A stretch of DNA of 64,000 bases from Variovorax sp. HW608 (GTDB lineage: Bacteria > Pseudomonadota > Gammaproteobacteria > Burkholderiales > Burkholderiaceae_C): NCBI RefSeq assembly GCF_900090195.1, contig NZ_LT607803.1, positions 2,976,001 through 3,040,000 of the forward strand, given 5' to 3'. A model generated the notes under the pieces. That model was not told the DNA's origin. It was given only the letters and a program-made list of their open reading frames with translations, and made no database searches. Positions 34,686-53,768 of the stretch are shown here, piece after piece. Position 1 is the first letter of the stretch. Each line of letters starts with the position of its first letter. The position numbers and the translations under genes were made by a program.

Positions 34686-35576
34686 ATGACGAAAAAGCGG
34701 CTCTTTGCGTTGATCGACGGCGGCGTTGGCTGTGGGATTGGAGAATCGTATTGCTCTTGGATCCGCGTGCGACGTCGCCTCAGCTCGCCGATCAGCACGA
34801 TCTTCGTAAGTCACACGCCGCTCTATCGCTACCGCTCTCTCCACCTCCTTTCAACTGGGGAAGAGAGGGCAAGTCGAATCGCAACGTGGCTCGGCGCTAC
34901 AGAAATTCGAGAACAGATGCCCATGTGGCCAGGCGAGCACGAGCACCCCCTGACAGGTTGGGACATCGACCGGGATGCATTTCTACCCCCTCTACGCGGG
35001 ATGCTCGAGATCGCCCACGACTTGGGGATAAAGCATGGCGTGTATCCGGGCACGGACATTCCCTTTGTTGCGACCACCGATCTGATGATTCGCCACGGTA
35101 CGCCCCCAAAGGACCGCTTAGCACTCTGGCAATGTAAGCCGGCAACGCAACGCCAATCCCCACGCAGCCGGCGAGTGGTCCAGCGGTTGGCGCTCGAAGA
35201 AAGATACGCGATAGAGGCTGGCGCCTTTTCGAAGATTATGTACAGCGACTCTCTCCCTGAGCGCTTTCACGAAAATCTGCTTTGGCTCGAACCACTACGT
35301 TCCGAAATTGAAGCCTTTGGCAGGTCAAATCAGCTGATTGACTTTGCCCATGAATTTATGCGTCTCGCCAACAGCGATTCGATCGAGGTGTGCAGGATCA
35401 AGGCGGCAAAGAAGACCGGCTTGGATCTGGAGTACAGCCACACATTCTTCCGCATGGCCGCTTGGGGCGGTCTCATTGACATCGACTTGACCCAGCCGAT
35501 CTACATGAACAAGATGCTCAACCGTTCCTCGGAAGCATTTCGCGACCGCTTGCGGCGAGAACTACTGGACGCCTGA
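34686..35576 (+). CDS. tnsA: TnsA-like endonuclease of a Tn7-like transposon
   Basis: About 296 residues from the ATG at 34686; the frame stays open upstream but the part before it does not look like TnsA. The N-terminal endonuclease fold is recognised by the catalytic order E..D..Q-x-K: TEIREQMPMWP, then GVYPGTDIPFVATTDLMI, then LALWQCKP. TnsA cuts the 5' ends of the element and makes transposition cut-and-paste. The C-terminal part (IKAAKKTGLDLEYSHTFFRM) is the winged-helix region. Its stop overlaps the start of tnsB (TGATG), indicating translational coupling. GC is lower than in the flanks. Confidence 0.82.
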   Translation: MTKKRLFALIDGGVGCGIGESYCSWIRVRRRLSSPISTIFVSHTPLYRYRSLHLLSTGEERASRIATWLGATEIREQMPMWPGEHEHPLTGWDIDRDAFLPPLRGMLEIAHDLGIKHGVYPGTDIPFVATTDLMIRHGTPPKDRLALWQCKPATQRQSPRSRRVVQRLALEERYAIEAGAFSKIMYSDSLPERFHENLLWLEPLRSEIEAFGRSNQLIDFAHEFMRLANSDSIEVCRIKAAKKTGLDLEYSHTFFRMAAWGGLIDIDLTQPIYMNKMLNRSSEAFRDRLRRELLDA

Positions 35577-37858: not shown

Positions 37859-39252
37859 ATAGCAACAGCGATTCCTTTGCGTGGGCCGATGGTAATCCGC
37901 TGCTCCCCGGCGTAACTCCGCTGATGGGAGCCATCGATTGGGCAAACGCTCTTTTTTTTGATCCCTGCCGCAAGTGGCCAACGAAGGTGGCCGCGGAGAG
38001 ACGGCTCCTCGCCATCGAGCAGATTAGCAACGTCTACGTACCGCGTTTTGACGACGTGGAGGCAGCCATAAGACTCCATCTGATGCTCATCAACAGTCTT
38101 GTTCAAAGAGACCCCAGGCTGCAATCGAACAAGGAATGGGCGTTCCATGCCTTTGCTGCGCTCGATAAGACCATTGACGACATTCCCGACCCCCCGTACG
38201 AACAAATGAGGGCTCAAGGGGCGATTCTCCAAGGGCCGAGTCAGAGTGGCAAAACGGCCTTTCGACAACGCTTCACGGCGCAGTTTGTGCAGCGCATCGA
38301 TCGGGGACGAAATGAAGAGTGCGGTTGGGCAGAGCTTAAACAGCTGGTTTGGCTATGTGCGGAAATGCCAGCCGATGGCAGTAGGTCGACTTTGTGCGAA
38401 TCTATCGCTCGCGAGATGGACAAGGTTCTGTGTACCAACTATGCCACCCAACTGGCAAAGCTAAAAAGCGTCGACACTAAGTTGGTGCATATAGTTCACT
38501 GGTTAGGCCTCCATCGATGTAGCATGCTGTTTATAGAAGAATCACAAGATGGGGACCTGAACACCCCCGTGATCGGCAAGATATTTCGCAAATTTTTTCT
38601 GCGCCTTCTGAATTCTGGAACGCCCGTAGTTCTCATGGGAAATCCGCTTGCGTTTGACGATCTTATGGCAGACAGCCAAGATCTAAATCGTTTCACCGAG
38701 GGCGGAGATTGGAAGTTCTTTCCTGAAATTTCGTGGCTCACTGATCGCTGGACGAAAGACATAATTCCGCATCTGTGGGGATTCACGGTCTTCGGTCCAA
38801 ATTCTGATTCCCACATCGAAGATCTGCCCAAGGTAATCTGGTGTCTGACGGGTGGCCTGCCGGCGTACGTGCGCCGATTGCGCAGGGAAACACTCTTGTG
38901 CACCCTGCTAGCAGGAAAAGAGCGCGTCGATTCGGAAGCTTTGATTGAAGCTGTGCACAGTAGTCCCATGGTTGGAGTGAGGCCAATCATCTCGGCTTAT
39001 GTGCGGCGAGATATTGAGGCGCTATCGAAATTCAAAGACCAACCTGTCGCGGCCTTCGCAGAGCGCTGGGCGGCCCTATCCGCTGAGGAGCGAGTGGAAT
39101 TTTTCCCCGATGTCCAAGACTTTTCACTTTCTTCTATATATCCGAACGCGATAGCAGGCTCAGGAGCAGATCAGGCGCGAAAAAGATCGGCATCAGCTTC
39201 TAAGTTAGGGCGAAAAGTTGTCGACATCAACCGAAAGATTGCCCCACTTTAG
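37846..39252 (+). CDS. tnsC: TnsC/TniB-like AAA+ ATPase
   Basis: Target-selection ATPase of 468 residues. Walker A is LQGPSQSGKTAFRQRF near residue 130; Walker B is SMLFIEESQDG near 230; sensor-like GNPLAFDDL near 270. The protein is larger than TniB and similar to TnsC. TnsC polymers link the target-binding TniQ/TnsD protein to the TnsAB transposase. The start overlaps the end of tnsB, and tniQ begins 16 bp after its stop. Confidence 0.85.
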   Translation: MAQVDSNSDSFAWADGNPLLPGVTPLMGAIDWANALFFDPCRKWPTKVAAERRLLAIEQISNVYVPRFDDVEAAIRLHLMLINSLVQRDPRLQSNKEWAFHAFAALDKTIDDIPDPPYEQMRAQGAILQGPSQSGKTAFRQRFTAQFVQRIDRGRNEECGWAELKQLVWLCAEMPADGSRSTLCESIAREMDKVLCTNYATQLAKLKSVDTKLVHIVHWLGLHRCSMLFIEESQDGDLNTPVIGKIFRKFFLRLLNSGTPVVLMGNPLAFDDLMADSQDLNRFTEGGDWKFFPEISWLTDRWTKDIIPHLWGFTVFGPNSDSHIEDLPKVIWCLTGGLPAYVRRLRRETLLCTLLAGKERVDSEALIEAVHSSPMVGVRPIISAYVRRDIEALSKFKDQPVAAFAERWAALSAEERVEFFPDVQDFSLSSIYPNAIAGSGADQARKRSASASKLGRKVVDINRKIAPL

Positions 39253-39267
39253 CGAGATGGATCCAGC

Positions 39268-41040
39268 ATGACTCCTCTGGTACCCCTAGATGCGACAGTT
39301 CGATCGATATTGACTGCGTATGGCGCATGTGGGTGCTTCCGTGCAAAGGACATTAGCAAGGATTTCGAAGGCGGCCAGGCCAGATTGGAGAACCCTTTTG
39401 CGTTGCGAGCAAACCGAATTTCCGAGGATCTGCTCGGTGGAAGCATCGCAGCCGCAACCCTGATGGCTTCGCACTCACAAGCGGGCTTATGGGGGGCATT
39501 TTTTACCGAGGAGGAAGAATTGCTTTGGCTTGCCTCCTTGGCGGCAGGCGATGCTCGCGGTCGCCACTCCATCATGACACTTGCCTTCGATGGGACGTCC
39601 TCGCCCTCCATGTGCCGGGTCTGCCCAGACTGCGTCGCAGACGATTTGGCGCGGTATGGGTTTGGGCACTGGCATCTTTTTCATCAGCTGGGGTTCATCC
39701 AAAGGTGTCCTCTTCACGGTCGGCAGCTCAGGTTTAGATGCGAAGCCTGCAGAAGTAGCCGGAGCTTTATACCAGCGCATACAAAATGTAAGAGGTGCGA
39801 AGACAGCGTTGAATACGAACTCCCTCGAACACGCTTTCAATTTTCAGAGGGCTACCAGAAGACGTGCGAATTGCTTCAAAATGTTTATCGGGGGACGGCG
39901 CCGATACTTAGGCCTTATCAGCGGCATCGCCTCTGTCATGCAGCCTTCAGTGAATCTCACGATCTCTCTTCGCCTGGAAGTTTGCTCGCCGAATTCGTCA
40001 CGTGGTTTGGGGTTGATTCTTTCGAGGCAGTCCAACGAACGCTTCATTGCTTTGCTTCACGCGAAAGAGTCAAAACGGCGCTTATCGGCTTGCCGAGCAG
40101 GGTGCCCGTAGTGCTTCAAGCGGCGCTGTGTGCGTTCGCTCTGGAACGAGCACCGGCTAGTTGGCTAAAGAGCGCCTCACAGAAATTCCGCGGAAGCTCG
40201 ATTCCTCTGCCTTCGGATGACGAGCAACACGCGGTCGAGATAAGTGTGGAGCAAGGATTTTCGCCGGACATCGTGTCGATGCTAATGCGGGGCCATTCGA
40301 GACAGGAGGTCGCTCGCAGGGCGTGTGTTGGCGAAAATGTCTTGGCGCTTCTTGAAAACAAATTTTCCAGGGAGGTGCAATCCAAAATTTGGGAATTAAG
40401 AACCAACGCCGGCTCGAGGGGTGTTGGCTGGTTGACTCGCGGGAGAGCCGAGGATCTGGAGAAGCGGAGGGCACAAAGCGGGATACGGACGGAAATCCTG
40501 GCAGAACGCATGCAGCAGCGCATTATCGCCGCGAGGGAAATGGCTTTAAATATGACATCAGCAGGCCTTTGTCGGTCCCAGATCTCCAATGCTCGACCAG
40601 GCTTGTACCAATTTCTTTTGAGAAATGATCGAAAGTGGTTTGAAGCGCACGTCCCTCGAATCATTAGAGTACTTAAACCGCGAGAAGCGACACGCGTCCG
40701 ATATAGATCAATTCTCGTAAAGATGCGCAACAAAGACCCGGGCTTCAAAATGCGTGACCTTCCGTCTGGGGTTTCGGACTGGCTTAGAAAAAACGACCGA
40801 GACTGGTTGAAGACTCAGTGCCCTTCGGGGAAATATAAAGACTTATCTGAAAGGATAGCGCAGTTGCGTGAAATCGCAATGATTTCGTTAGACAAAGGAG
40901 AGCTCTCGCCAACCGGAATTCCGATTTCTTTCGTGAAGACCTGGTGGAGCTGGATGATGTCTTATGATCGCCAGTGGATTGAGAATGTCTATAACAAATT
41001 GCGACGCCAAGCCAATCTCCGTCCGAAGCTGACTAGCTGA
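39268..41040 (+). CDS. TniQ/TnsD-family target-selection protein
   Basis: Protein of 590 residues. The N-terminal TniQ domain (about 1-200) has the zinc motif set CRVCPDC, RCPLHGRQLRFRCEAC and HTKCKRC. The C-terminal half is TnsD-like and carries three successive repeats ending in D-R-x-W: LLRNDRKWFEAHVP, LRKNDRDWLKTQCPSG and MSYDRQWIENVYN, spaced by roughly 60-70 residues. Such repeats are helix-turn-helix DNA-binding units in TnsD, which directs insertion to a fixed chromosomal site. A site-specific attachment mode is therefore likely; the attachment site is not identified. Confidence 0.85.
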   Translation: MTPLVPLDATVRSILTAYGACGCFRAKDISKDFEGGQARLENPFALRANRISEDLLGGSIAAATLMASHSQAGLWGAFFTEEEELLWLASLAAGDARGRHSIMTLAFDGTSSPSMCRVCPDCVADDLARYGFGHWHLFHQLGFIQRCPLHGRQLRFRCEACRSSRSFIPAHTKCKRCEDSVEYELPRTRFQFSEGYQKTCELLQNVYRGTAPILRPYQRHRLCHAAFSESHDLSSPGSLLAEFVTWFGVDSFEAVQRTLHCFASRERVKTALIGLPSRVPVVLQAALCAFALERAPASWLKSASQKFRGSSIPLPSDDEQHAVEISVEQGFSPDIVSMLMRGHSRQEVARRACVGENVLALLENKFSREVQSKIWELRTNAGSRGVGWLTRGRAEDLEKRRAQSGIRTEILAERMQQRIIAAREMALNMTSAGLCRSQISNARPGLYQFLLRNDRKWFEAHVPRIIRVLKPREATRVRYRSILVKMRNKDPGFKMRDLPSGVSDWLRKNDRDWLKTQCPSGKYKDLSERIAQLREIAMISLDKGELSPTGIPISFVKTWWSWMMSYDRQWIENVYNKLRRQANLRPKLTS

Positions 41041-41297: not shown

Positions 41298-42062
41298 CTA
41301 CTCGCGATGGCGCCAGGCCCGTTTGGCGGACATTCGCTCTTCGAGCAGCACTTCGTCTGTGAAGTGCAGCAGGGTGTAGACACCTTCGGCAAACCTGATT
41401 GAATGTTCCTGAACATCGTATCGATCCTCCGGGACCGACTCGAACCAGAGTTCCGCAGGCATCTTGCCCTGCTTCTTTGTACCGGCACCAGCTTCCAGCA
41501 AGTCACTCGCGTAGCTGTCGCTGTTGACCTCCCGCTTTAGCCATAAATGCTCAGGAACGCGACTGGAGCGAGCGGACCACCATCTGCCATTGTCGGCGCC
41601 GTTGAAGATCAGAACGACTGGTTCTCCGGACAACTCCGCGAAGCGGATGGCAGCCGCCGGAAAGCTGGCCTGGAACGCTGCGCCCAGGTCACTCACGAGT
41701 GCCAACGACACCTCGCTCTTACCGGCCTTGATGGCTTCCTTGAACATGCCGGTGGGCATCATGAGCGATGAAGCGTAGTCGTCGGCTTCACGCTCCTTGC
41801 TTTTTTCGGCCTTATCCAGCGCCCGTTCCTCGACTCGGCAGGAGAAACTCTGGCCGCGGTGCTGCTCCCAATGCCCGATTTCGTGCGCGATCGAGAAACG
41901 CCGGCTCTCGGGCGATATGCCGGTCGTCACAGTGACGATCCCCCTATCCCCGAGACCTACGAGGCTGGCCTCGCAACCAGTCATCGCTCGATCACGTACT
42001 TGCAGGCCAGCTTCGAAGGCGATCAGTTCGGCTCGTCGCGCGACGAACTCCTTCCGCCTCAA
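41298..42062 (-). CDS. ImmA/IrrE-family zinc metallopeptidase
   Basis: Protein of 254 residues with RRFSIAHEIGHWEQHRGQSF, the HExxH motif near residue 62, and the third ligand in EREADDYASSLMMP. ImmA-type peptidases cleave XRE-type repressors. Only a TTG at 42062, immediately behind an upstream in-frame stop, is available as a start before the domain, so the N terminus may be truncated or the gene once followed another. No XRE partner is next to it; an XRE-ImmA pair occurs at 52561-53768. Confidence 0.8.
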   Translation of the reverse strand: MRRKEFVARRAELIAFEAGLQVRDRAMTGCEASLVGLGDRGIVTVTTGISPESRRFSIAHEIGHWEQHRGQSFSCRVEERALDKAEKSKEREADDYASSLMMPTGMFKEAIKAGKSEVSLALVSDLGAAFQASFPAAAIRFAELSGEPVVLIFNGADNGRWWSARSSRVPEHLWLKREVNSDSYASDLLEAGAGTKKQGKMPAELWFESVPEDRYDVQEHSIRFAEGVYTLLHFTDEVLLEERMSAKRAWRHRE

Positions 42063-42216: not shown

Positions 42217-43299
42217 TCAACCCCGTTCATTGTTCTGGCGCCGGCGCCAGAACACGGATTCGGGCCAACGCTTCTCATGGGCGTAGTAGGCGTTGCGCAG
42301 GGCCATCGCTAGGTCAAAATCGGCGAGGATCTTGGTGTCGTAAACCTGAAGTGCCGAGTGATCTCCGGCCAGGTTCGCGCTGATGGCATCTGCCGCAAGC
42401 CGCCCGCTCGAGAGCGCCTTGAAGATGCCCTGACCCGACAGTGGATCGTAAGAGGCGGCCGCGTCACCGACGGCTAGCCAGCCAATGCCGTACGCCGGCT
42501 GCAGGCAGGCGCTGTCAGCCGGCACCGGACGCGGCGGCCGGTCGAGCAGGTGAGCCTCTACGAGGTGAGCCAGATGCTCCGTGTGACTCAGTGCGGACTC
42601 GAACTGGCACACGCTCCGCGGGTGCAGATCGGGGTCGGTCATATAGCTGACCGCGATCTGTGCGTCCGGCAAGGGTGCGCCGTACCACCATCCATGTTCG
42701 GTGGCTTCCAGCAGCATCACCCCTGCCTCGGTGCGCTCGCGGGTGCGGGGTCGATAACGCGCGACGACGCCAATCAAGCGGTCGCGCGCCACACGCGTCG
42801 CACCCTGGCGCCGCGCGAATGAAGCGGCGCGGCCGCTGGCATCGACGACGAAGCGTGCACGCAGGACTTCACCTGCGATGCGCAGCGCCCAGAGGCCGTC
42901 TGCGTCGCGTTCGGCCGAATGCACTTGCGCCGGCCGACGCAACCCGACGCCCGCAGTTTGCGCCTGCTTGAGCAGCATCGCATCGAAGCGCGCGCGGTCG
43001 AGATGCCAGCCGTTGCCGTAGGGGTCGTAGATGAAGTCGCGCTCAAGAGGCTCGCTGTGGCCCCAGACGGATTGGATCGCGACAGAGGGCAGCGGCATCG
43101 ACGCGATGAAGGCCTCCCACACGCCCAGGGCTGCGAGTGGACGGCACGCGGCGGGCGGCAGGGTTTCACCAACGCGGGCTGGCGAATCGGCGGCACGCTC
43201 GAGCAGCAGGCAGCTGTGCCCATGCTGACGCAATGCCAGCGCCGTGGCACAGCCGGCCGGGCCGGCGCCAATGATCGCGACGTCGTCGGCGGTGGCCAA
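42217..43299 (-). CDS. LodB-like FAD-dependent oxidoreductase
   Basis: Flavoprotein of 360 residues starting at a TTG 5 bp after the oxidase stop at 43305. The dinucleotide-binding motif VAIIGAGPAGCATALALRQH opens the protein; RVGETLPPAACRPLAALGVW and the second FAD motif IGWLAVGDAAASYDPLSGQG follow. This is the tryptophan-halogenase-like class to which LodB belongs; LodB-type proteins are needed to build the cysteine-tryptophylquinone cofactor of LodA oxidases. Overlapping position next to a LodA-domain gene supports that role here. Confidence 0.85.
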   Translation of the reverse strand: MATADDVAIIGAGPAGCATALALRQHGHSCLLLERAADSPARVGETLPPAACRPLAALGVWEAFIASMPLPSVAIQSVWGHSEPLERDFIYDPYGNGWHLDRARFDAMLLKQAQTAGVGLRRPAQVHSAERDADGLWALRIAGEVLRARFVVDASGRAASFARRQGATRVARDRLIGVVARYRPRTRERTEAGVMLLEATEHGWWYGAPLPDAQIAVSYMTDPDLHPRSVCQFESALSHTEHLAHLVEAHLLDRPPRPVPADSACLQPAYGIGWLAVGDAAASYDPLSGQGIFKALSSGRLAADAISANLAGDHSALQVYDTKILADFDLAMALRNAYYAHEKRWPESVFWRRRQNNERG

Positions 43300-43304
43300 T
43301 GGCG

Positions 43305-46300
43305 CTAGTCCTGGTCTTCGCGCTCGCTCTCCACGAAACGCGTGCCATCCTTGACCACGAAGCCCAGCCGGTGCCAGCGCTTGATCATGTCCTCCGGGCC
43401 ATCGACGATGTCGCGGGTCCACTTCACCGGCGTGTCGCTGGTGCCGACAAAGACATCGTCGGGCCGCTGCGCCGGCCACCAAGCGAGCGGCTCCTCGAAC
43501 TGGCAGTCGTTGAAGTCCGATTGCCATGGCACCGACATCTGCTGCGTCACGTCGCCCGCCGACAACGCAACCAGCGAGAGCCTGAACGGCTCGGCAAAGG
43601 GCAACACGTCTCGCAGGGCCCAACCCGCCTCGATGCCGGGGTAGAACGGCCCGCCGACACAGGTGTCCAGGCCAGCCCGATCCAGCCCTTCTGGCGTGAT
43701 CTCGGTGGCGGGTGATGGCGGCCCGCTCCAGTCGTTGACGAAGTCGCCGTTCTTCCACTGTTCCAGCACGCGGTACTGGATGCGCGTGACGGGCTGGTTC
43801 TGGGCCTCGTCCATCTCGGCCATATCAGCCACGTTGCGCGGCGCGGCCCGCTCGTCGGCCTGCATGCCGTAGTGCTCCGACCAAACCATGGGCATGTCGC
43901 CGCCCGAGCCGTCATTGGGGTTGCGCAGGCGCTCGAAGATCGCCGCGCGCACCGCGTCGGGCCCCGGTGGCGGCACGATGGCGGCCAAGGTCTTGTGCGC
44001 CGAGCCTGCCAGCGCACTGACCCACTTCATCTGCGTGACCCGCGCCAGCAGCGGGAAGATGTCGCGGCTGAACGAGGGCTGCTCGGGCAGCGCGAAACCG
44101 AGCTTGTCCACCGCGGTCTGAAGGAGCACGTCGTACAGCGTGCTGATGCTCTGGACCGCCGGCGCGAACTTCGGCGGGCCGACGATGACCCAGGCCCCCA
44201 CTGCATGCAGCGTCTGGTCCAGGCCGTGCAACTCCACCGTGGCAGTGACGGGGCCGTCGGACACGTCGTCGTGCCAGCCGTCGTTGTTGGCGAAGGAGGT
44301 GATTGGCGCACTGGCAGGCGACGCCGAGTGGCCGAAGCCGCCAAGCACCAGCAGCCGGCCCTGTTCGTCGGTGCGGATCTCGCCGAGCGGCACACTGGCG
44401 CCGAGGAAGGTTCCACTGTCAAAGCTGGCCGATTGCGCAACCCCGCTGATCGAGCGCGCACCAGGGTCGATCTCGAGCGTCTTGCGATCGGCGACGCCGG
44501 CGTTGCGCAGCGGCGTGTCTTGCTTGAGGCCCTCAAAGCGGGGCCCGGCCGCCTTCTTGTTGGCCAGGTGAACGGTCCAATGAATGGTGGCGTCCTTCGA
44601 GTCCAGCTCCTGCACCAGCTTTCCGTGTTCGTCGTAGCCGAACAGACGAAAGCGCGCGGCCTGGCGCTTCACACGGTGCTGCTTGTCCTTGTAGCCGCCG
44701 GCCGGCGGCGTGCTGTCGCCGGGAATCTCCGGGCCGATGAAGAATTCGCTCGGGCTGTTGCCGACACGCGCGATGCCGATGGCCGGGTGGATCTTCACCG
44801 TGCGAATGGTCTCGAGCTTGGACTTCACGCGCAGCCAATGCGCGATGGACGGCACGCCGGCCTGATTCACCGCGAACAGCATGTAGTGGCCGGGTGGCAC
44901 CAGGTTCGGGTTGTCGCTCAGGTGCGCGACGAGCTTGCATACACCGCTGCGCCTGAACGCGATGTCGACCAGGCGCTGCTCGCTGTCGCACGAATGCGTG
45001 GTGGCCATCGGCCGCACCAGGCTCAGCCACTTGATGTCTTCCGCGTTGGGAATGTGCAGGGAGAACGAATCACCCAGCGTGAGTTCGGCGGGCGCGCTCT
45101 CGATGCAAGGTCGCGGCCCGCGGAACAGATACGGCGGGTGATAGACCTCGAGCCGCATTTCGTCGTTGCGCCGGCTCGGGTTGGAGCCGGCGGTGAGCAC
45201 GCGCGCATCCGGAAGCAGCAGCGCGATCGAGTGGTACATGCGCGGCACACGCGCCCGGGCGCCGGTCGTCCAGGTGTTGGTGACAGGGTCGTAGATTTCC
45301 GCCTCGGTCGACGCGGTGAGCGCGTTTTCGGCGATGCCGCTGCCGCCTGTGGCGACCACGGTTCGGTCGGGCAGGATCACGGCGTTGACGTGGATACGGT
45401 TGCGAAGCATCGACGGTGCGGCGACGTAGTGCGGACCGGGCGCATCGGTATCGATGATGTGAACGGCGTTGATGCTCGGGCTGCCACCGCCCATCACCAT
45501 GATCTTTTGCATCTGAGCCGGCGGTAGCAGCACAGTCGCGCCCTGGTCGCGGGCGCCGAAGTTGAAGCTGGCGGGAATGGCCGCCGCCGGCAGCGGCGCA
45601 TAGGCGCCGGTGGCAGGTATCAGGAAGCCAGGTTGTACGCCCGAGCCGCCCAGCCGCATCCCCGAATGGAATACGCGGCCATCGGCCAACAGGTTCAGGT
45701 GCGGGTAAAGCGGCCAGCCGAAGCCCGGCCCCGCCACGGACCAGCCGGTGGGGTTGCTGTAGAGCTCGTTCTCCGGGTTACCTCCGCCCGAGGCAGCCAT
45801 CACCCGGCCATCACCGAGCGTGATCAGCGCGGGGTACCAGCGGCCCCATTTCATTGGATGCACGAAGGTCCAATGCTCGGTCGCTGGATCGAAGAGCAGT
45901 GCCGTCTTCAAGCCGACGAAGGGGTCGTAGCGCTCGGTGCCGCCGCCCACCAGCAATCGCCCGTCGGGGAGGAACGACTGGCCGGCGCAGAACACATCGG
46001 CGGGCGTGTTCGGCATCGTCATGGTGCCGCTCTTGTAGTCGTAGACCGCACTGCGGAAGCCCGTGGTATAGAGTTCGTCGTTGCCGCTACCAGCGAAGAA
46101 CACGATCCTGCCGGTGTGCATCAACGCTGCATGCACCGCGAGCACGGGCAGCTCGCATGGCAGCAGTTCCCAGTAGCCGAGCTTCGCCACGGTCTGCGCG
46201 TCAACCGGGCCGGTAGCGGGAACCACCACCGGCTCGAACGGGTGCTCGTGATCCATCGCATCCGGCGTGTGGGCATGCTCCTGCATCTGCACCACGTGCT

Positions 46301-47801
46301 CGGGTGTGCCCGCGTCGGCCGGCATGGTCATCGGCATCGGGCTGTCACCGCGCGTCGGGGGCTGCTGCGTCGGCCGCAACGGCTCGCGGCCCATGCAGCG
46401 CGTCAGGTCCACCGGTGTGCACTCGTTGTCGCAGCAGCCCAGAGGCAGCACCAGCTGGGTCTGCTTGAGCACCGCATCCGTGATCCAGACCTTCTGCGTC
46501 GCGCGAATCAGCCCGGCGAGGCCGGCCATCATGTGCTCTTCGACGTGGCAGTGGAACAGGAAGTCGGCGCACAGCTCTGTCAGGCACGCATCGGCCGGCG
46601 GGCAGCACTGCAGTTGCTCCAGCTCGCAGGGCAGGCGTAGGGCCGGAGGCACTTCAGTGTCGACAATGAAGGTCTCGACCGGACTCAGCGCGTGCACGTC
46701 GCTGGCGCCGCCTGGCGGCGACGGAATCTGCCAGCGCGACGCGTGGGGGTGGAAGTTGTGCCACATGCTGCCGGTGTCGAGATTGAACAGGTACCAGCGG
46801 ATCGTTTCGCCCGAGTTGGCGCTGATGATCGGCGTGTTGCCGACGAACGCGCGGCCGTTGAGGCAGAAGCTCGCCTTGCCGCCACCACCCGAAAACACGA
46901 TGTGCTGGTTGTCACCGGAATTGGTCCAGATCACCTCGGTGCCGGCGGTGATGGTGATGTCGGCCGGGGTGAATTTGTTGTCTTCGATCTTCACGTTCAC
47001 CGCCGCGGTGGGCGAACCGGCCACCACGTGCACACTCCCCGCCATGCTGGGGCCGTGAATCCGGCAGATGTAGTCGGTGGTCTGGTCGGCCGCCAGGAAC
47101 TTGAACTTGAACACGTCGCCGTGCGAGAGCATCGGACTTTCGAACTGCACACTGCCGCTGGAGCCGGCCATCACGTGAAAGAACATCGGCACTTCGTGAT
47201 CGACGCGTGTTGCGCGCGGGTCTCGGACGATGATGCCGCCCAGCAACCCACGGTTGATATTCATCTGCACGTGCCGCACGTGATCGTGGAAAGGCCATGC
47301 GCCGATCGTCTCGGAGGTGATGTCGAAGACATAGGTCCAGGTCTGGCCGGGCAGGATCTCGTCGCTGCGCCGCCCGTCCTTGCTCGCCACGCCGCGCGGC
47401 CATGCGCCATCGGAGTCGATGCCATAGCGCAGGCCGTGCACGTGCAGGCTGTGGCAATCGCGCGGGTCTGCGTTGCGCAAGTGGATGCGCAGGCGCTCGC
47501 CGGGCTTGGCCCAGATCAGCGCGCTCGGTACGCGCCGGTCCCATGGGGGCTCGGCGACGTCGGAAGGCACCAGAGGCGCGGTGTTCGGGATCGTGTAGTC
47601 CCCGTCGAGGTACTCGCGATAGACCAATGCGTCAACACGCGCGTCGAGAATCTCCTCGGCCGGGATACGGCCGAGTTCATGGCCATCGTTGAACTGGCAA
47701 TCGCGACCATAGCGCCTCGCGCATAGAAGCGGCGCGAGTGGGCTGTAATCAAGGAGGGGCTCGATCTGCAGGAAGATGTCACGGCTGGCGCATGCGGACA
47801 T
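43305..47801 (-). CDS. Triple-oxidase fusion: multicopper oxidase + kelch radical-copper oxidase + LodA-like quinoprotein
   Basis: Single frame of 1498 residues, no signal peptide; GGGGGA lies before the ATG. Residues 1-470: multicopper oxidase with all four copper motifs (HSLHVHGL near 117, HDHVRH near 171, HNFHPH near 349, HCHVEEHMMAGL near 419) and an extra plastocyanin-like insert (about 245-310). Residues 530-985: galactose/glyoxal-oxidase-like domain with VFCAGQSFLPDGRLL (cross-link cysteine, near 603), RWYPALITLGDGR (near 652), RMYHSIALLLPD (Tyr-His, near 854) and ATTHSCD (His, near 934). Residues 998-1498: LodA-like, from VKIHPAIGIARVGNSPSEFF to DTCVGGPFYPGIEAGW and PWQSDFNDC, the region holding the family's quinone cysteine. 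A LodB-like gene follows. Confidence 0.85.
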   Translation of the reverse strand: MSACASRDIFLQIEPLLDYSPLAPLLCARRYGRDCQFNDGHELGRIPAEEILDARVDALVYREYLDGDYTIPNTAPLVPSDVAEPPWDRRVPSALIWAKPGERLRIHLRNADPRDCHSLHVHGLRYGIDSDGAWPRGVASKDGRRSDEILPGQTWTYVFDITSETIGAWPFHDHVRHVQMNINRGLLGGIIVRDPRATRVDHEVPMFFHVMAGSSGSVQFESPMLSHGDVFKFKFLAADQTTDYICRIHGPSMAGSVHVVAGSPTAAVNVKIEDNKFTPADITITAGTEVIWTNSGDNQHIVFSGGGGKASFCLNGRAFVGNTPIISANSGETIRWYLFNLDTGSMWHNFHPHASRWQIPSPPGGASDVHALSPVETFIVDTEVPPALRLPCELEQLQCCPPADACLTELCADFLFHCHVEEHMMAGLAGLIRATQKVWITDAVLKQTQLVLPLGCCDNECTPVDLTRCMGREPLRPTQQPPTRGDSPMPMTMPADAGTPEHVVQMQEHAHTPDAMDHEHPFEPVVVPATGPVDAQTVAKLGYWELLPCELPVLAVHAALMHTGRIVFFAGSGNDELYTTGFRSAVYDYKSGTMTMPNTPADVFCAGQSFLPDGRLLVGGGTERYDPFVGLKTALLFDPATEHWTFVHPMKWGRWYPALITLGDGRVMAASGGGNPENELYSNPTGWSVAGPGFGWPLYPHLNLLADGRVFHSGMRLGGSGVQPGFLIPATGAYAPLPAAAIPASFNFGARDQGATVLLPPAQMQKIMVMGGGSPSINAVHIIDTDAPGPHYVAAPSMLRNRIHVNAVILPDRTVVATGGSGIAENALTASTEAEIYDPVTNTWTTGARARVPRMYHSIALLLPDARVLTAGSNPSRRNDEMRLEVYHPPYLFRGPRPCIESAPAELTLGDSFSLHIPNAEDIKWLSLVRPMATTHSCDSEQRLVDIAFRRSGVCKLVAHLSDNPNLVPPGHYMLFAVNQAGVPSIAHWLRVKSKLETIRTVKIHPAIGIARVGNSPSEFFIGPEIPGDSTPPAGGYKDKQHRVKRQAARFRLFGYDEHGKLVQELDSKDATIHWTVHLANKKAAGPRFEGLKQDTPLRNAGVADRKTLEIDPGARSISGVAQSASFDSGTFLGASVPLGEIRTDEQGRLLVLGGFGHSASPASAPITSFANNDGWHDDVSDGPVTATVELHGLDQTLHAVGAWVIVGPPKFAPAVQSISTLYDVLLQTAVDKLGFALPEQPSFSRDIFPLLARVTQMKWVSALAGSAHKTLAAIVPPPGPDAVRAAIFERLRNPNDGSGGDMPMVWSEHYGMQADERAAPRNVADMAEMDEAQNQPVTRIQYRVLEQWKNGDFVNDWSGPPSPATEITPEGLDRAGLDTCVGGPFYPGIEAGWALRDVLPFAEPFRLSLVALSAGDVTQQMSVPWQSDFNDCQFEEPLAWWPAQRPDDVFVGTSDTPVKWTRDIVDGPEDMIKRWHRLGFVVKDGTRFVESEREDQD

Positions 47802-47979
47802 GGCTCGTCCCCCTAAGTTGTTGGGACCTCATTTGAGATCCCCTTGGTGGGAGCAAGCATCCCCATCTTTGTGGATTGCAGTTCGCCAAGGGTCGTGGGT
47901 GATCCGTGACCGCAGTCAATCGCTTCACTTGGCCACGCTTTGACCTGCGTGCGTGCGCACTCCATCTGTTGGATGCAAT

Positions 47980-48017
47980 CAAAAAGGAGAAAGGGCGTCC
48001 GCATGCAACGGACGCCC
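47980..48017 (-). terminator. Rho-independent terminator after the tyrosinase gene
   Basis: Minus-strand 9-bp stem GGGCGTCCG/CGGACGCCC with a 7-nt loop (47993-48017), followed by TTTCTCCTTTTTG. It lies 94 bp past the tyrosinase stop and ahead of the triple-oxidase start, so the two are probably separate transcripts. Confidence 0.75.
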
Positions 48018-48110
48018 CTTCAATTGGGCAGTCTCTACCCCTACGGAATCAAACGCACCGCAAATCGCGTGACGGGCCGCTCAATCCGTCGCATGGCTCC
48101 TCCGAGGAAC

Positions 48111-49241
48111 TCACTGCTTTTCCATGCGCGCAGCGGTGTCTTGCAGCGACTTTCTTGCGGGCGCACTGTGCACCATCCCAGCCAATTCGTGCACTACTGA
48201 ACCGAGCAGCTGATCCTTCTGCCGGGCCGATAGTTGATTCCATACCGGACCGGGACCACCCGGCACTGGGTGAGGCTTGCCGTCGGGCCCGATGACCACA
48301 CCCGGCGCATCGTTGATCACACCGAACAGTACCCGCGTGAGCGAGAGCACGTTGTCAAACTTGGGCACCCGGACCTCGTCGTCATAGACATAGCCCAGTG
48401 GATGGGTGTCAATCACGCTTGCCGGCGTGGCGGTGCCGGCCCACGGTGGCGGCGGTTCGGCGTTGAAGATCATCGCGTCTTGCAAGTTGTGACCTTGAGC
48501 TGCTCCGCTGACCGGAAGGTACGGAGCGGAACTCAAGTGCCTACCCTGCCATCGCGACCACAGGCGATCGATGTTTGCGTGATGCAAGAAGAACACCGGG
48601 TCGTTGGGCGAGGTCATGTTTCCCATGGTGCCGCCGACCCACCGGTGGACTAGATTGTGCAGAGAGATTTCCAGGCTGGCACGAAAGCCGCCTGTATTCC
48701 CTGCCCACGGGAAGTTGTCGTACGGAGTGATGCCGAGAACGCTATTGACCTGTGCGAGCGACGGAAGTGCCGTGGCCGTAGGGTCTGCGCCAAAGTTGCG
48801 CTGCAAGAAGTTGGGATCGCCGGGGTTGTCCTTGATCTTGATCGTCCAATGCGCAGACGCGGTAGATGCAAATGGCCCGTCGACAACCATACTTGTTGGC
48901 CCCGAGCCATTGGTGCCGAGGAAATCGACCGTGAACGGGAAGGATGCTGGATCCGTCCAGTCCCAGTAGGGCAGGGTCACAGCGGGATCGACTGCCTCCA
49001 GATCGTTCTCGAACTGCAGCAACATCTCGCGATGCCATGGGAAGAAGGCGGGCCGCTGATGTGCCCAACCTGGCGTGGCCGTCATGGCGTTCATGTGGAT
49101 GTCCGCATAGTCGTCGTAGCGGCTGAGCGAAGCGTCACCTGGGTGCAGAACGCTGGGTCGATTCTTCAGCGCAATGACAGCGTTGACAAATGCCTTCTTC
49201 TCGCCCGCGCTCAGACGGGCCACACTTTTCCTGATTCGCAT
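48111..49241 (-). CDS. Tyrosinase-family type-3 copper protein
   Basis: Protein of 376 residues from the ATG at 49241, with GAGGACTGAC upstream. The CuA site is seen in DIHMNAM, WAHQRPAFFPWHREML near residue 70; the CuB site in LHNLVHRWVGG near 215 and DPVFFLHHANIDRLWSRW near 240. This is the full six-histidine set of tyrosinase/polyphenol oxidase, which hydroxylates phenols and oxidises catechols. The C-terminal extension (from about 280) is of the DWL/tyrosinase-C type. No signal peptide. It is upstream of the triple-oxidase gene on the same strand. Confidence 0.9.
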   Translation of the reverse strand: MRIRKSVARLSAGEKKAFVNAVIALKNRPSVLHPGDASLSRYDDYADIHMNAMTATPGWAHQRPAFFPWHREMLLQFENDLEAVDPAVTLPYWDWTDPASFPFTVDFLGTNGSGPTSMVVDGPFASTASAHWTIKIKDNPGDPNFLQRNFGADPTATALPSLAQVNSVLGITPYDNFPWAGNTGGFRASLEISLHNLVHRWVGGTMGNMTSPNDPVFFLHHANIDRLWSRWQGRHLSSAPYLPVSGAAQGHNLQDAMIFNAEPPPPWAGTATPASVIDTHPLGYVYDDEVRVPKFDNVLSLTRVLFGVINDAPGVVIGPDGKPHPVPGGPGPVWNQLSARQKDQLLGSVVHELAGMVHSAPARKSLQDTAARMEKQ

Positions 49242-50374: not shown

Positions 50375-51769
50375 TTAGGTTCTATACACCCTATACGGCG
50401 ACTTGTCGCCGGCAGCGATGAGCGAAGGCAGCGCGCAACCTGGCTTACATGTGCAGCGCCGCTTGGACTCCATCGTGGAGTCGACGAAGCGATACCGCTG
50501 AACGCCGCTGTCGGCCAGCCCCAGGGGCGCGATCACCAAGTTCAGCATCTGGAGGAACTGCTGGCTGGCGCAGGCCATGGAAAAGCCGAACACGTTCTGG
50601 CGGGCCCTGAGGGGGTGGTCCCCGGGCAGACCCTCGATGTACTGTGGGTCGTCCAGGCGTCCTTCACGCTCCGTCTGCACGTACGCGGTGTCGTATTGGC
50701 CCAGGCACTGCAAGCACGCACGGCCCGGCCCCACGGTCTGCGCTGTCCAGTCCGCGCCGACCAACTGCCGGCTGCGATTGGTCCGCACCAGGATTCCTCC
50801 ATCGATCACCGGGATCAGGTGCCCGTACGCAATGTGGTTCAGCACATGACGGCCCCACGGCCGGTCCACGCACGAGAACAGCACGTCGCAGTCCAAGGCC
50901 AGTCGGTAGGCCTCTGGTTCGTAAACGGCATGCGGCACCTCCTCGACCAGGAACCTCTCCGCCGTCGCGATGGAGCGCAGCCTCTCGGCGAACACACGCA
51001 CCTTGGGCTTCCCCACGTCTGAAGGAAGGGCGTAGCACAGACGGTCGAGATTGTGCTCGTCCACCTTGTCGAAGTCGAACACCCGCACGTGCTGGATGCC
51101 TGTACGTGCCAAGCCTTCACCGATGAAGCCGCCGGTACTTCCCGCCCCCACAACGCCGACCCGTAGCCGGGCGAGATCGGCCTGCTTCTGCTCACCCCAC
51201 GCTGACACGGTACGGACCAGCCGTCCGCTCGCCCGAGGCGCAGGCACCAAGTCCGGACAGAAAGTTGTCCGGAGAGCTTCGCCGACCACGCGCACGTTTT
51301 CACACCAGTTGGGACGCCAGTCTCGGGGAGCATGGCGATACCAGAACCTTGCGCTCCAGGACTGGTCAGACCCTGCGAGAGTAAGCCCCACGAAGGGAAA
51401 ATCCGTTGCGCCCATCACGGCACCGGCGTTCCCACTCTCCGCAGCGACATCTGGGACGCTCATACCCTGCCACCCTGCGCCGAGCGGATGGCTGTGCAGC
51501 ATCGCAAGCCCTGCGCCGCGGGCAGCGGCGGTGGCGAGTGCGCGCTCAAAGAAAAGCGGCGTGAAGCTCACGTTGCCGTGCAGTATCCGGTCCCCTTCGC
51601 CTGGGAGGATCAATTCCCGGACCAGTGCCGTAGTCCGAGTGGCACCGGAACTCGGACTCCACAACGCGAAACATATGTCCTCCTGACCGTCGGCACGGAG
51701 CAGATGGGCGGCCGCCTGCTCGTGCACGGCGGCCGTCATCGCAGCGCTGAAGGTGGGTGTCCCGCTCAT
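50375..51769 (-). CDS. JAB peptidase-E1 (ThiF-like) fusion of a bacterial ubiquitin-like system
   Basis: Protein of 464 residues. N-terminal JAB/JAMM domain: HSHPLGAGWQGMSVPD (residues 92-107) gives H-x-H-P-x(n)-S-x-x-D, and an upstream glutamate lies in VRELILPGE. The E1 domain starts near 205 with LRVGVVGAGSTGGFIGEGLA and VFDFDKVDEHNLDR, followed by the adenylation core and a C-x-x-C in RACLQCLGQYD that may hold the thioester cysteine. The C terminus has C-x-C-x-x-x-C (RRCTCKPGCA). E1 adenylates a ubiquitin-like C terminus, and JAB would process or remove it. Overlaps the Ubl-E2 gene by 4 bp. Confidence 0.85.
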   Translation of the reverse strand: MSGTPTFSAAMTAAVHEQAAAHLLRADGQEDICFALWSPSSGATRTTALVRELILPGEGDRILHGNVSFTPLFFERALATAAARGAGLAMLHSHPLGAGWQGMSVPDVAAESGNAGAVMGATDFPFVGLTLAGSDQSWSARFWYRHAPRDWRPNWCENVRVVGEALRTTFCPDLVPAPRASGRLVRTVSAWGEQKQADLARLRVGVVGAGSTGGFIGEGLARTGIQHVRVFDFDKVDEHNLDRLCYALPSDVGKPKVRVFAERLRSIATAERFLVEEVPHAVYEPEAYRLALDCDVLFSCVDRPWGRHVLNHIAYGHLIPVIDGGILVRTNRSRQLVGADWTAQTVGPGRACLQCLGQYDTAYVQTEREGRLDDPQYIEGLPGDHPLRARQNVFGFSMACASQQFLQMLNLVIAPLGLADSGVQRYRFVDSTMESKRRCTCKPGCALPSLIAAGDKSPYRVYRT

Positions 51770-52437
51770 TGGCTATCCCACAGGCGCCAAATGTGGCTCA
51801 GGTAGGCAGCCACGGTCTTGCGGCCGGTGCTCCAGTCCTGGAACGGTCGCGACCAGTATTGCCACGGCTCGCTCAGGGCTTGGCTGAACTTCGCCGAGTG
51901 CTCGAGGTAAATAGCGCCGTACGGGTGCGTGCCGCTCGTGTTGATAGGGAACACGCGGGGTGAGACGTGAGGTCCGCTGGGCGGGGTTTCAGGAAAGTCC
52001 TGCGGGACGATCACGCCGACCTTTACTTTGGTGCCTGCTTTCGTTCCTGAGGGCACCACGTAGTCGAAATAGAGGTGATCAGGATGGCCGGGTACGGTCG
52101 CAACGCTGAAGCCCGCCTCGGCCAAGCCGCGGGCGAATGCCCCGGGCCCCGTCAAGGCGCCGTCGGAAACGGGGGTGGCGCCGGAGAGCACGGTCTGGAA
52201 GTGCACCCCGTTCTTGAGCGCGATGGGCTCATCGGGATTGCCCTGGTAGCTGATCCGGTCGTTGCCGTGAATCTGCACCAAGTAGTAGTTTGCGGGGTCG
52301 CGCTTGGCCAAGTCGGAAATGATCTGGCGCGCTGTGAGGCTGCTCACCTCCACATCCTCGCGTTCACCGTCCACGAAGATGTGAACGTCCTGTTTCCGGT
52401 CGCCATCCGGCTTGCTGGCTGAAGCGTCAGCTTGCAT
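51766..52437 (-). CDS. Ubiquitin-like-E2-like fusion of a bacterial conjugation system
   Basis: Protein of 223 residues. Residues about 17-90 form a multiubiquitin-type beta-grasp domain (DVHIFVDGEREDVEVSSLTA, YYLVQIHGNDRISYQGNPDE, NGVHFQTVLSG). Residues about 100-223 are like prokaryotic E2 family E: PDHLYFDYVVPSGTKAGTKV, VGVIVPQDFPETPPSGPHVS, HPYGAIYLEHSAKFSQALSE, and the C-terminal WSRPFQDWSTGRKTVAAYLS. The protein contains no cysteine at all, so a normal E2 thioester is not possible. It is the first gene of the pair and starts divergently from the XRE gene. Confidence 0.8.
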   Translation of the reverse strand: MQADASASKPDGDRKQDVHIFVDGEREDVEVSSLTARQIISDLAKRDPANYYLVQIHGNDRISYQGNPDEPIALKNGVHFQTVLSGATPVSDGALTGPGAFARGLAEAGFSVATVPGHPDHLYFDYVVPSGTKAGTKVKVGVIVPQDFPETPPSGPHVSPRVFPINTSGTHPYGAIYLEHSAKFSQALSEPWQYWSRPFQDWSTGRKTVAAYLSHIWRLWDSQ

Positions 52438-52486: not shown

Positions 52487-52553
52487 CGACAAGATCGACT
52501 TGTCGAGAAATATAGCGATAACTTGTCGATACCGTCAAGTTCTAGTTGTCGAC
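52487..52553. promoter_or_regulatory. Operator array between the Ubl-E2 and XRE genes
   Basis: TTGTCGA occurs three times at 52500-52506, 52523-52529 and 52546-52552, exactly 23 bp apart each time, so all three are on nearly the same DNA face. The first is part of an inverted repeat CGACAAG-ATCGA-CTTGTCG (52487-52505). The last lies just before the XRE ATG at 52561. Likely the XRE binding array controlling both divergent genes. Confidence 0.6.
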
Positions 52554-52560
52554 TTCGAAA

Positions 52561-52905
52561 ATGAACCCCAAGGACGATCTCTTCCCGTCACGGCTAAAGG
52601 CTGCCCGCGAGCTACGGCAGCTGAGCCAGCAAGCACTCGCCGAGGCCGCTGCCCTGCCTTCCACATCCATTTCCCACTTCGAAGGAGGCACGCGCAAGCC
52701 GTCCTTCGACAACTTGAAGCGGCTGGCGGATAGCCTCAGGGTCAGCGCCGACTACCTGTTGGGCCGGGTTGACGCGCCTGAAGAGGTTGGCACCCCGGAC
52801 ACACTGGCGCGGCACGCGGCGAAGCTCACCCAGGAAAATCTACAACTGGCCGAGGCATTCCTCGACCTGCTGGCAAAGAAAGACGCGGAGAAGCGCAAGT
52901 CGTGA
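52561..52905 (+). CDS. XRE-family HTH repressor
   Basis: Protein of 114 residues. HTH: RLKAARELRQLSQQALAEAA and TSISHFEGGTRKPSFDNLKR, followed by LADSLRVSADYLLGRVDAPE and a helical C-terminal region that ImmA-type peptidases usually cleave. The ATG at 52561 was chosen over TTG at 52546, which lies inside an operator box; no clear ribosome site is present. It overlaps the ImmA gene by 4 bp and is divergent from the ubiquitin-like pair. Confidence 0.85.
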   Translation: MNPKDDLFPSRLKAARELRQLSQQALAEAAALPSTSISHFEGGTRKPSFDNLKRLADSLRVSADYLLGRVDAPEEVGTPDTLARHAAKLTQENLQLAEAFLDLLAKKDAEKRKS

Positions 52906-53768
52906 GCCGGCCCATTCCTGATGCTGGTGCCGCGGAGATCCAGGCCCAACAGGTTCTTGCAGAGCGCGGCTTCAAGGCTTTGCCCGTGGACCCGATCGTG
53001 ATCGCCGAAGGGTGCGACATCGCAGTGCAGCCCGCGCCGAGCACAAAGCCCGGCGTATCTGGGCTGCTGCTTCGTCACGGTACGACGTTCGGCATCCTGT
53101 ACTCGACGGCGATCTCCAGCACCGGTTTCCAGAGATTCAGCGTCGCACATGAACTGGGGCACTACTTCATGCCAGGTCACGTGGAAGCGGTGCTAGGAAC
53201 GAACGGTAAGGTCCACGAATCACGCGCCGCAAGCGGCAGCAGCGACCCCTACGAGCAGGAGGCGGATTCCTTCGCGGCCGCTCTCCTGATGCCGAAGGAT
53301 TGGTTCACCAGTGCCCTCCGCAAGAGCGACGACGGCATGGACGGCGTGGAGCACCTGGCCGAACTGTGCGGGACTTCGCTCGTTGCCACCGCGAACCGAT
53401 ATGTGGACCACACGTCTATTCCCGCGGCAGTGATCGTCAGTTCGAATGGGCGAGTCGAGTACTGCAAGTGGTCGCCGTCGCTGCGGGAGTTCCGCGGCCT
53501 AGACTGGCCTCGCCGTGGTGAACCGGTTCCTATCGGCAGTATCACCGCCCGCTTCACCGCTTCGTCGGCCTTGGTGTCGGGCGCGAGTCGCTCCGATGGG
53601 ACCGGGGAGCTGAAGGACTGGTTTAACGGTCCTTACGATCTTGAGGTGTCGGAGGAAGTCCGTAGCCTTGGCAACTGGGGCAAGGTCCTCACCGTGCTCA
53701 CCCTCGACACTTTCGCTGACGAAGTCGAGGACGATGCGCCGCCCCGCTGGGGAAATCGGTTCAGGTGA
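52902..53768 (+). CDS. ImmA/IrrE-family zinc metallopeptidase (partner of the XRE repressor)
   Basis: Protein of 288 residues starting at a GTG that overlaps the XRE stop (GTGA). RFSVAHELGHYFMPGHVEA gives HExxH near residue 85; EQEADSFAAALLMPKDWF gives the third zinc ligand. The C-terminal domain (about 190-288) may sense the inducing signal. Coupling with XRE suggests that on a trigger it cleaves the repressor and releases the divergent Ubl/E1/JAB genes. The trigger is unknown. Confidence 0.85.
   Translation: MSRPIPDAGAAEIQAQQVLAERGFKALPVDPIVIAEGCDIAVQPAPSTKPGVSGLLLRHGTTFGILYSTAISSTGFQRFSVAHELGHYFMPGHVEAVLGTNGKVHESRAASGSSDPYEQEADSFAAALLMPKDWFTSALRKSDDGMDGVEHLAELCGTSLVATANRYVDHTSIPAAVIVSSNGRVEYCKWSPSLREFRGLDWPRRGEPVPIGSITARFTASSALVSGASRSDGTGELKDWFNGPYDLEVSEEVRSLGNWGKVLTVLTLDTFADEVEDDAPPRWGNRFR

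Follow-up and report, generated by a model that had tools for sequence, protein, structure and literature searches.

Organization of the oxidase locus

The window analysed here is a stretch of 64,000 nucleotides (nt) from Variovorax sp. HW608 (NZ_LT607803.1, positions 2,976,001 to 3,040,000), whose genome is a single 7.73-Mb contig. The minus strand of the window carries, from 47801 to 43305, one uninterrupted frame of 1498 codons (ATG at 47801, stop codon at 43305-43307) that encodes a protein of 1498 amino acids (aa) and has a GC content at third codon positions of 0.86. Pfam and NCBIfam searches with this protein find three enzyme families in tandem: a multicopper oxidase (MCO; Cu-oxidase_3 at residues 89-196 and Cu-oxidase_2 from residue 307), a GlxA-type radical copper oxidase (kelch and galactose oxidase [GO]-like E-set matches at residues 584-992, NCBIfam GlxA model at 628-993), and a LodA/GoxA-type quinoprotein dependent on cysteine tryptophylquinone (CTQ; LodA_N and LodA_C at residues 1005-1441, NCBIfam GoxA model at 997-1399). 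The predicted folds of all three modules match solved enzymes. A gene of the CTQ-maturase type follows on the same strand, and a tyrosinase gene lies upstream (Table 1).

Conservation was assessed in an alignment of 16 fusions (A1), an alignment of 72 MCO-GlxA rows (A2), and a census of 65 rows of the LodA module. The copper ligands and the radical-site Cys and Tyr residues are invariant in 16/16 fusions and 72/72 MCO-GlxA rows. A preliminary description of this DNA had proposed one polypeptide with three different oxidases, and this is borne out: the 1498-codon frame is intact, the domain search finds all three families, and their site residues are apparently intact. Conservation and predicted fold together show that the fusion is real, that it has been maintained in evolution, and that its three sets of redox-centre residues are complete; a CTQ-maturase-type gene stands beside it.

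Table 1. Features of the oxidase locus (window coordinates).
Feature	Position	Strand	Basis
Fusion gene, MCO - GlxA-type radical copper oxidase - LodA/GoxA-type CTQ oxidase	43305..47801	-	Frame, domain searches, 15 homologous clusters
MCO domain 1, approximately residues 60-200; trinuclear-cluster His120, His122, His172, His174	47202..47624	-	Pfam Cu-oxidase_3; ceruloplasmin fold; conservation census
MCO domain 2, residues 199-312, probable circularly permuted plastocyanin/amicyanin-like domain; Tyr244, Cys246, His249, Met253, His300	46866..47207	-	Half-matches in swapped order; ligand conservation
MCO domain 3, approximately residues 313-445; His348, His351, His353, His417-Cys418-His419, His423, axial position Leu428	46467..46865	-	Pfam Cu-oxidase_2; census
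Low-confidence, probably disordered Met/His-rich linker from MCO to GlxA, residues 470-541	46179..46394	-	Predicted local distance difference test (pLDDT) <50 at 473-529; Met+His content
Kelch propeller of radical copper oxidase, residues 541-896; Cys605, Trp655-Tyr656, Tyr856-His857	45114..46181	-	
GO-like E-set domain, residues 897-992, with His936	44826..45113	-	Pfam PF09118; GlxA alignment
E-set/LodA junction, 4 residues (994-997)	44811..44822	-	
LodA/GoxA-type quinoprotein, short form, residues 998-1498; Asp1429, Cys1433, Trp1442	43308..44810	-	
GoxB/LodB-type CTQ maturase (flavoprotein), about 360 aa; inferred TTG start 43299	42217..43299	-	NCBIfam GoxB 6.7e-79, LodB 3.1e-69
Terminator-like hairpin with T-rich tail, between tyrosinase and fusion genes	47989..48021	-	14 pairs; folding z -5.1, 0/200 shuffles as stable
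Tyrosinase (MelC2-like), upstream of fusion; start at internal Met inferred	48111..49241	-	Pfam Tyrosinase 3.3e-43, NCBIfam MelC2 7.4e-67

The multicopper oxidase module and its second domain

The MCO module has cupredoxin-domain folds and resembles ceruloplasmin. Its type-1 (two His, one Cys) and trinuclear (eight His) ligands, assigned by the usual MCO pattern, are complete in every row of A1 and A2. Domain 2, lying between domains 1 and 3, carries an additional invariant set (Tyr244, Cys246, His249, Met253, His300). Compared in its natural order with amicyanin 1id2, this domain matches in two pieces that stand in the wrong order (best E 0.0023): residues 14-56 of 1id2 match 62-104 of the domain-2 stretch, and residues 61-104 match 15-60, the latter weakly (4.6 bits). 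For other amicyanin entries the best match is the C-terminal half of domain 2. With the halves swapped, PF00127 is covered almost completely (4-98 of 99 for the window protein), and the score rises in the three stretches scored, of four made: from 25.3 to 32.3 bits for the window protein, from 35.6 to 42.7 for P0041, and from 25.1 to 33.2 for P0084. The best PDB match of the swapped domain is plastocyanin 1pcs (E 3.2e-5, as against 0.03 in natural order). Domain 2 is therefore best described as a probable circularly permuted plastocyanin/amicyanin-like domain that would have blue-copper ligands of its own, in which it differs from ceruloplasmin-type MCOs and laccases. We found no description of a permuted blue-copper domain in an MCO in the literature searched (titles and the beginnings of abstracts, among the matches listed). 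Being common to nearly all MCO-GlxA proteins examined, the domain is a small finding in protein evolution by itself.

Amicyanin is the natural electron acceptor for the tryptophan-derived quinone of methylamine dehydrogenase. The likeness of domain 2 to amicyanin and plastocyanin after swapping of the halves thus speaks for a reading in which the fusion would be a wired quinoprotein, its LodA module handing electrons from the CTQ through the permuted domain to the MCO cluster, where O2 would be reduced to water with little release of H2O2. Against it, the His/Cys/His/Met ligands of the domain are conserved equally well where LodA is missing, in 34/34 near relatives (32 long-tailed, 2 two-module) and in 34/35 distinct MCO-GlxA-type open reading frames (ORFs) from the fetched loci; in addition, the GlxA part and a low-confidence stretch of about 60 residues separate the MCO from LodA. 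We consider this reading rather improbable.

The radical copper module and the linker

The radical copper module has the kelch propeller and the E-set fold, and Cys605, Trp655, Tyr656, Tyr856, His857, and His936 align with the corresponding residues of GlxA, each of them conserved throughout A1 and A2. In contrast to Streptomyces lividans GlxA, it lacks an insertion of approximately 110 residues (unaligned 117-229 of the 4unm chain), sits between an MCO and a LodA module, and scores below the GlxA equivalog cut-off.

In a sister MCO-kelch subfamily (L039-L041, L043-L051, L053-L063, and L073, among the MCO-GlxA-type ORFs from the fetched loci), Cys605 is replaced by Ser and Trp655 by Phe jointly, in 24/39 rows or 23/35 distinct ORFs, while both Tyr and both His residues are kept. 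To judge from these residues, such a Ser/Phe copper site cannot form the thioether radical cofactor. Since the radical Cys and the Trp are lost together in this subfamily, their retention in the fusions is not trivial.

These degenerate relatives are also an argument for regarding one or two of the modules as structural or binding remnants, with only the remaining one catalytic. The same view can draw on the missed GlxA, LodA, and GoxA equivalog cut-offs and on the fact that no assay of any member was found in the literature searched. It is very unlikely in light of the full active-site sets, which are invariant in 16/16 fusions and in both groups of fusions described below.

The linker between the MCO and GlxA parts is rich in Met and His: these residues make up a mean of 16.3% of the linker and 6.5% of the remainder in A2 (linker higher in 72/72 rows), and 11.7% and 5.3%, respectively, in A1 (linker higher in 14/16 rows, not in the other 2). 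In the structural model, this low-confidence segment suits copper loading and a mobile MCO rather than a rigid electron path.

The LodA/GoxA-type module

LodA_N and LodA_C exceed their Pfam cut-offs (253.8 and 84 bits), and the genome of the window has no second LodA_N match. The alignment columns of LodA C516 and W581, the CTQ-forming positions, hold Cys1433 and Trp1442 of the fusion, and the CTQ Cys, Trp, and Asp are kept in 65/65 LodA-module rows. Cys1381 was considered as the CTQ cysteine and ruled out, as LodA C516 aligns with Cys1433. Marinomonas mediterranea LodA (a lysine epsilon-oxidase) and Pseudoalteromonas GoxA (a glycine oxidase) are likewise CTQ quinoproteins; unlike them, the LodA part of the fusion is short (approximately 500 aa versus 726), follows two copper oxidases, and misses both equivalog cut-offs.

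The same CTQ residues occur in 49 aligned standalone short LodAs that have no copper domain, and a GoxB/LodB-type maturase gene adjoins the fusion gene. Both observations make it less likely that the protein is, as had been suggested, a chimeric quinoprotein whose cofactor needs copper.

Two further observations concern the LodA family at large. P0291, a LodA-family protein of 1271 aa among the matches listed, is named as coming from Nitrosopumilus ureiphilus, an archaeon; a 2015 survey states that the family was not found in Archaea (PMC4417212). Within the 12 kb fetched, the short LodA genes of the Nitrosospira loci L130 and L131 are not accompanied by a GoxB-like match; L129 and L132-L135 do have one.

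Maturase, tyrosinase, and transcription unit

The gap between the fusion stop codon and the maturase start is approximately 5 nt. The maturase matches to GoxB and LodB both fall under the 400-bit equivalog cut-off (GoxB 265.5 of 400 bits), and a GoxB/LodB-type flavoprotein gene is also present in the locus of Variovorax sp. YR216 (L026). A gene of this kind is needed for active LodA (PMC4417212). Nucleotide homology to the YR216 locus forms one block, 42236-47874 (86%), comprising the fusion gene, the maturase gene, and 73 nt upstream.

The tyrosinase gene was considered as a further operon member and set aside: a terminator-like hairpin stands between it and the fusion gene, no tyrosinase match is found within the 24-kb YR216 locus, and nucleotide homology ends at 47874. 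The region has five terminator-like sites, about as many as expected from shuffled sequences (mean 4.1). Because of the hairpin and the lack of a match in the YR216 locus, the tyrosinase is probably a separate transcription unit and a neighbour rather than a partner. Elsewhere, tyrosinase matches occur within the flanks of 3/38 MCO-GlxA-type loci (L033, L056, and L058) and of both L136 and L137, with flanks of differing lengths; the link between tyrosinase and MCO-GlxA genes is thus a weaker association.

An acidobacterial contig from a metagenome-assembled genome (L033, 1-11276) carries on one strand, unfused, an MCO gene, an MCO-GlxA gene, two tyrosinase-like genes, a LodA gene, and the start of a second MCO-GlxA gene. 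In Marinomonas, LodA, an MCO, and a tyrosinase are under a shared regulator, and in Saccharophagus the genes are consecutive (PMC2855505); lodA, MCO, and tyrosinase genes are found in common operons elsewhere (PMC4417212). The L033 cluster and these published groupings point in the same direction, favouring an association.

Homologues and the question of an artefact

With words taken from the full length of the fusion, a search of 5.8 billion proteins returned 745 matches; here, as in the two further protein searches reported below (5278 and 1986 matches), the best 120 were used. Among these, the same three-part architecture is found in at least 15 clusters (P0001-P0013, P0015, and P0016) with 41 member sequences. 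P0001 is 92% identical to the window protein, P0002 (Piscinibacter sp.) 89%, and the other 13 are at 55-58%, with Terriglobales, Blastocatellia, and Pyrinomonadaceae named among the last. A scan of 84,980 species with two peptide patterns yielded 38 MCO-GlxA-type loci, one of which, that of Variovorax sp. YR216, contains the fusion (92%). Database records already carry names derived from the domains, for example 'LodA/GoxA family CTQ-dependent oxidase'; automatic annotation has therefore seen the domains.

The possibility that the long frame is an artefact (a missed stop codon, neighbouring genes misassembled into one, or a pseudogene in decay) draws on the L033 contig, in which unfused MCO-GlxA and LodA genes lie close by on one strand; the genes joined in the fusion may thus be neighbours by descent. 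The joined frame recurs in at least 15 other clusters and in Variovorax sp. YR216, the assembly is a single contig, and no internal stop is present. These homologues rule out the assembly fusion that the preliminary description had raised, and an artefact of any of these kinds is extremely improbable.

Recurrent joining of the same modules

For each module a tree was computed with a fast method on a selection of the listed proteins, with 71 rows for LodA and 65 for MCO-GlxA. In both module trees, four fusions (the window protein, L026, P0001, and P0002; termed Burkholderiales-type after Variovorax and Piscinibacter) stand apart from twelve others, and P0011 stands apart from both sets. A single clade of all 17 fusions is rejected by the approximately unbiased test for LodA (p=1.8e-6, or 1.6e-5 without P0011) and for MCO-GlxA (p=5.8e-50). 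For the MCO-GlxA module, the data are compatible (p 0.38) with one clade of the 13 fusions not of the Burkholderiales type, P0011 included; P0011 may represent a third joining event.

The two modules of the Burkholderiales-type fusions have different closest relatives. In the MCO-GlxA tree these fusions lie among proteins that mostly have an NHL/Vgb-like tail in place of LodA (labels assigned by length; one tail, that of P0014, was domain-scanned). Their LodA part is closest to standalone LodAs of approximately 500 aa, the nearest being 70-75% identical (best 120 of 5278 protein matches). The junctions are clean: a complete E-set is followed by 4-12 residues and then by LodA, and in 29/35 of the standalone forms printed the LodA match starts at residue 3 or 4. 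To judge by these sequences, the same two proteins were probably joined at least two times, in bacteria only distantly related to each other, with the order unchanged and the joint at almost the same place. That the fusions occupy two or more positions in each tree, always with this order and with junctions of 4-12 residues, suggests that physical coupling is of benefit. One old fusion followed by many later splits or losses would need more steps, though it is strictly still conceivable. In the LodA tree, a standalone LodA on a long branch (P0231) falls within the set of twelve fusions, which implies either some splitting or a misplaced long branch.

Proposed mechanism and its alternatives

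We tentatively favour, at a little short of even confidence, a team of tethered oxidases: the MCO would keep the radical-copper site oxidized, and the products of LodA may feed that site. Once matured by the GoxB-like flavoprotein, the LodA-like domain would oxidize an amine or amino acid, yielding NH3, H2O2, and an aldehyde or keto acid. The GlxA-like domain would oxidize an aldehyde or primary alcohol, possibly the LodA product, with release of H2O2. Glyoxal oxidase lapses into an inactive reduced state, from which one-electron oxidants such as peroxidase with ABTS (2,2'-azino-bis[3-ethylbenzothiazoline-6-sulfonic acid]) revive it (PMC10928124). In the fusion, the MCO module, with its type-1/trinuclear cluster and permuted blue-copper-like domain, would serve as the one-electron oxidant, reducing O2 to water and preventing the Tyr-Cys radical-copper site from lingering in such a state. 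The Met/His-rich flexible linker may assist copper loading. Physiologically, the protein might cross-link cell-surface material oxidatively or serve in competition by means of H2O2. The making and removal of H2O2 or aldehydes in sequence, which the preliminary description had suggested, is likewise hypothetical.

In a stronger form of this proposal, the protein would be a self-sustaining, internally wired oxidase: the permuted blue copper and the MCO cluster would exchange electrons with both the Tyr-Cys radical-copper and the CTQ sites, amines would be converted stepwise to acids, and electrons would go to water or peroxide, with no external activator needed. This form is unlikely; if true, one chain would hold a trinuclear cluster and two blue coppers together with a CTQ and a thioether radical copper site.

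The most serious rival to the tethered team is co-delivery, in which the modules act on unrelated substrates and pass on neither intermediates nor electrons, the fusion merely fixing 1:1:1 production and a common localization for matrix tanning or antimicrobial peroxide. Short LodAs are promiscuous: among the best 120 of 1986 matches they are fused to an MCO-Big protein (P0242), to ferritin-like and glucose/sorbosone dehydrogenase domains (P0296), to PLDc (P0309), and to vWA (P0288). The MCO-GlxA body of the nearest relatives ends in an NHL/Vgb-like tail rather than in LodA, and the MCO-GlxA linker is flexible. The probable joining of the same pair at least twice, in the same order, is beyond what would be expected of arbitrary partners, and we regard co-delivery as a possibility to be taken seriously that is nonetheless doubtful.

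Besides the promiscuity of LodA and the position of P0231, several points weigh against a team of tethered oxidases. The long low-confidence linker, as modelled, makes a fixed route for electrons between MCO and GlxA less likely. All three equivalog cut-offs are missed (GlxA NF052501, 326.5 of 800 bits; LodA NF038172, 207.9 of 600; GoxA NF038173, 291.7 of 750), so that a substrate is not assignable, and the CTQ loop (residues 1428-1443) has a model pLDDT below 50. By a crude hydrophobicity test, none of the 16 fusions and none of the 72 MCO-GlxA rows has a signal-peptide-like hydrophobic stretch at the N-terminus, which is odd for copper oxidases (the annotated start of P0015 seems late); a cytosolic start would fit the maturase, itself a soluble flavoprotein. 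The tyrosinase, as described above, does not appear to be a partner. LodA is optional: a LodA match (E 1e-5) is absent in 11/15 searched genomes drawn from the 38 with an MCO-GlxA-type locus, and in both Nitrosospira genomes LodA is on a different contig from that locus. The fusion is also rare. Among 399 order-level and 399 family-level genomes it was found in the window's own genome alone, and it was not found in any of 396 genomes from the phylum of G787, the source of the acidobacterial L033 contig, in searches that scored at most two candidates per genome and could miss divergent fusions. Finally, no biochemical data on any member were found in the literature searched.

Surroundings of the oxidase cassette

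The oxidase cassette adjoins a Tn7-like transposition module, a plus-strand block of lower GC content (34455-41037; 53% versus 63%) that encodes an AAA ATPase and a TniQ/TnsD-type protein; the two ORFs upstream of these have no Pfam match. An M78/IrrE-type peptidase gene (41301-42062, minus strand) lies between this block and the maturase gene. On the far side of the cassette, a gene for a ThiF-domain (E1-like) protein abuts a 223-aa ORF without a Pfam match (50378-52437, minus strand); nearby on the opposite strand (52546-53765) are a short putative helix-turn-helix regulator ORF and an IrrE-type peptidase gene. The ThiF-domain/IrrE neighbourhood may be a ubiquitin-like or defence cluster.

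Relation to known systems and significance

The closest counterparts of the N-terminal two thirds of the fusion are the two-module or NHL/Vgb-tailed MCO-GlxA proteins (with annotations such as 'galactose oxidase-like domain-containing protein'), which share 52-77% identity among the matches listed and conserve the ligands. They differ in having no LodA, the E-set being followed by a short end or by an NHL/SMP-30/Vgb-like tail. The group ID lodA operons (lodA, a small gene, lodB, tyrosinase, and MCO; Chacon-Verdu et al. 2015, PMC4417212) likewise bring MCO and tyrosinase genes together with one for a LodA-like protein. Their enzymes are separate proteins, and they usually have a gene of 138-142 aa between lodA and lodB, whereas no such gene is present at the fusion locus. 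Fusions of LodA to catalase-like (pfam00199), pfam14518, and vWA domains are given in Table 3 of the same survey; a domain has been added to LodA in these as it has here, but none in that table involves an MCO or a kelch copper oxidase.

The three families themselves are already known, and, as far as the literature searched extends, their combination in one protein is the new element: no description of an MCO combined with a radical copper oxidase and a CTQ quinoprotein was found there among the titles and beginnings of abstracts listed, in keeping with the earlier remark that no described protein of this architecture was known. To judge from this literature, the fusion would be the first polypeptide described in which a CTQ quinoprotein is united with an MCO and a Tyr-Cys radical copper oxidase, and its origin was probably not a single event. 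With it, the loose genomic link of lodA with MCO and tyrosinase genes can be tested as a physical link. The usefulness of radical copper oxidases as biocatalysts is limited by an inactivation for which a one-electron oxidant has to be added; a natural, built-in copper oxidase could show a way round this limitation.

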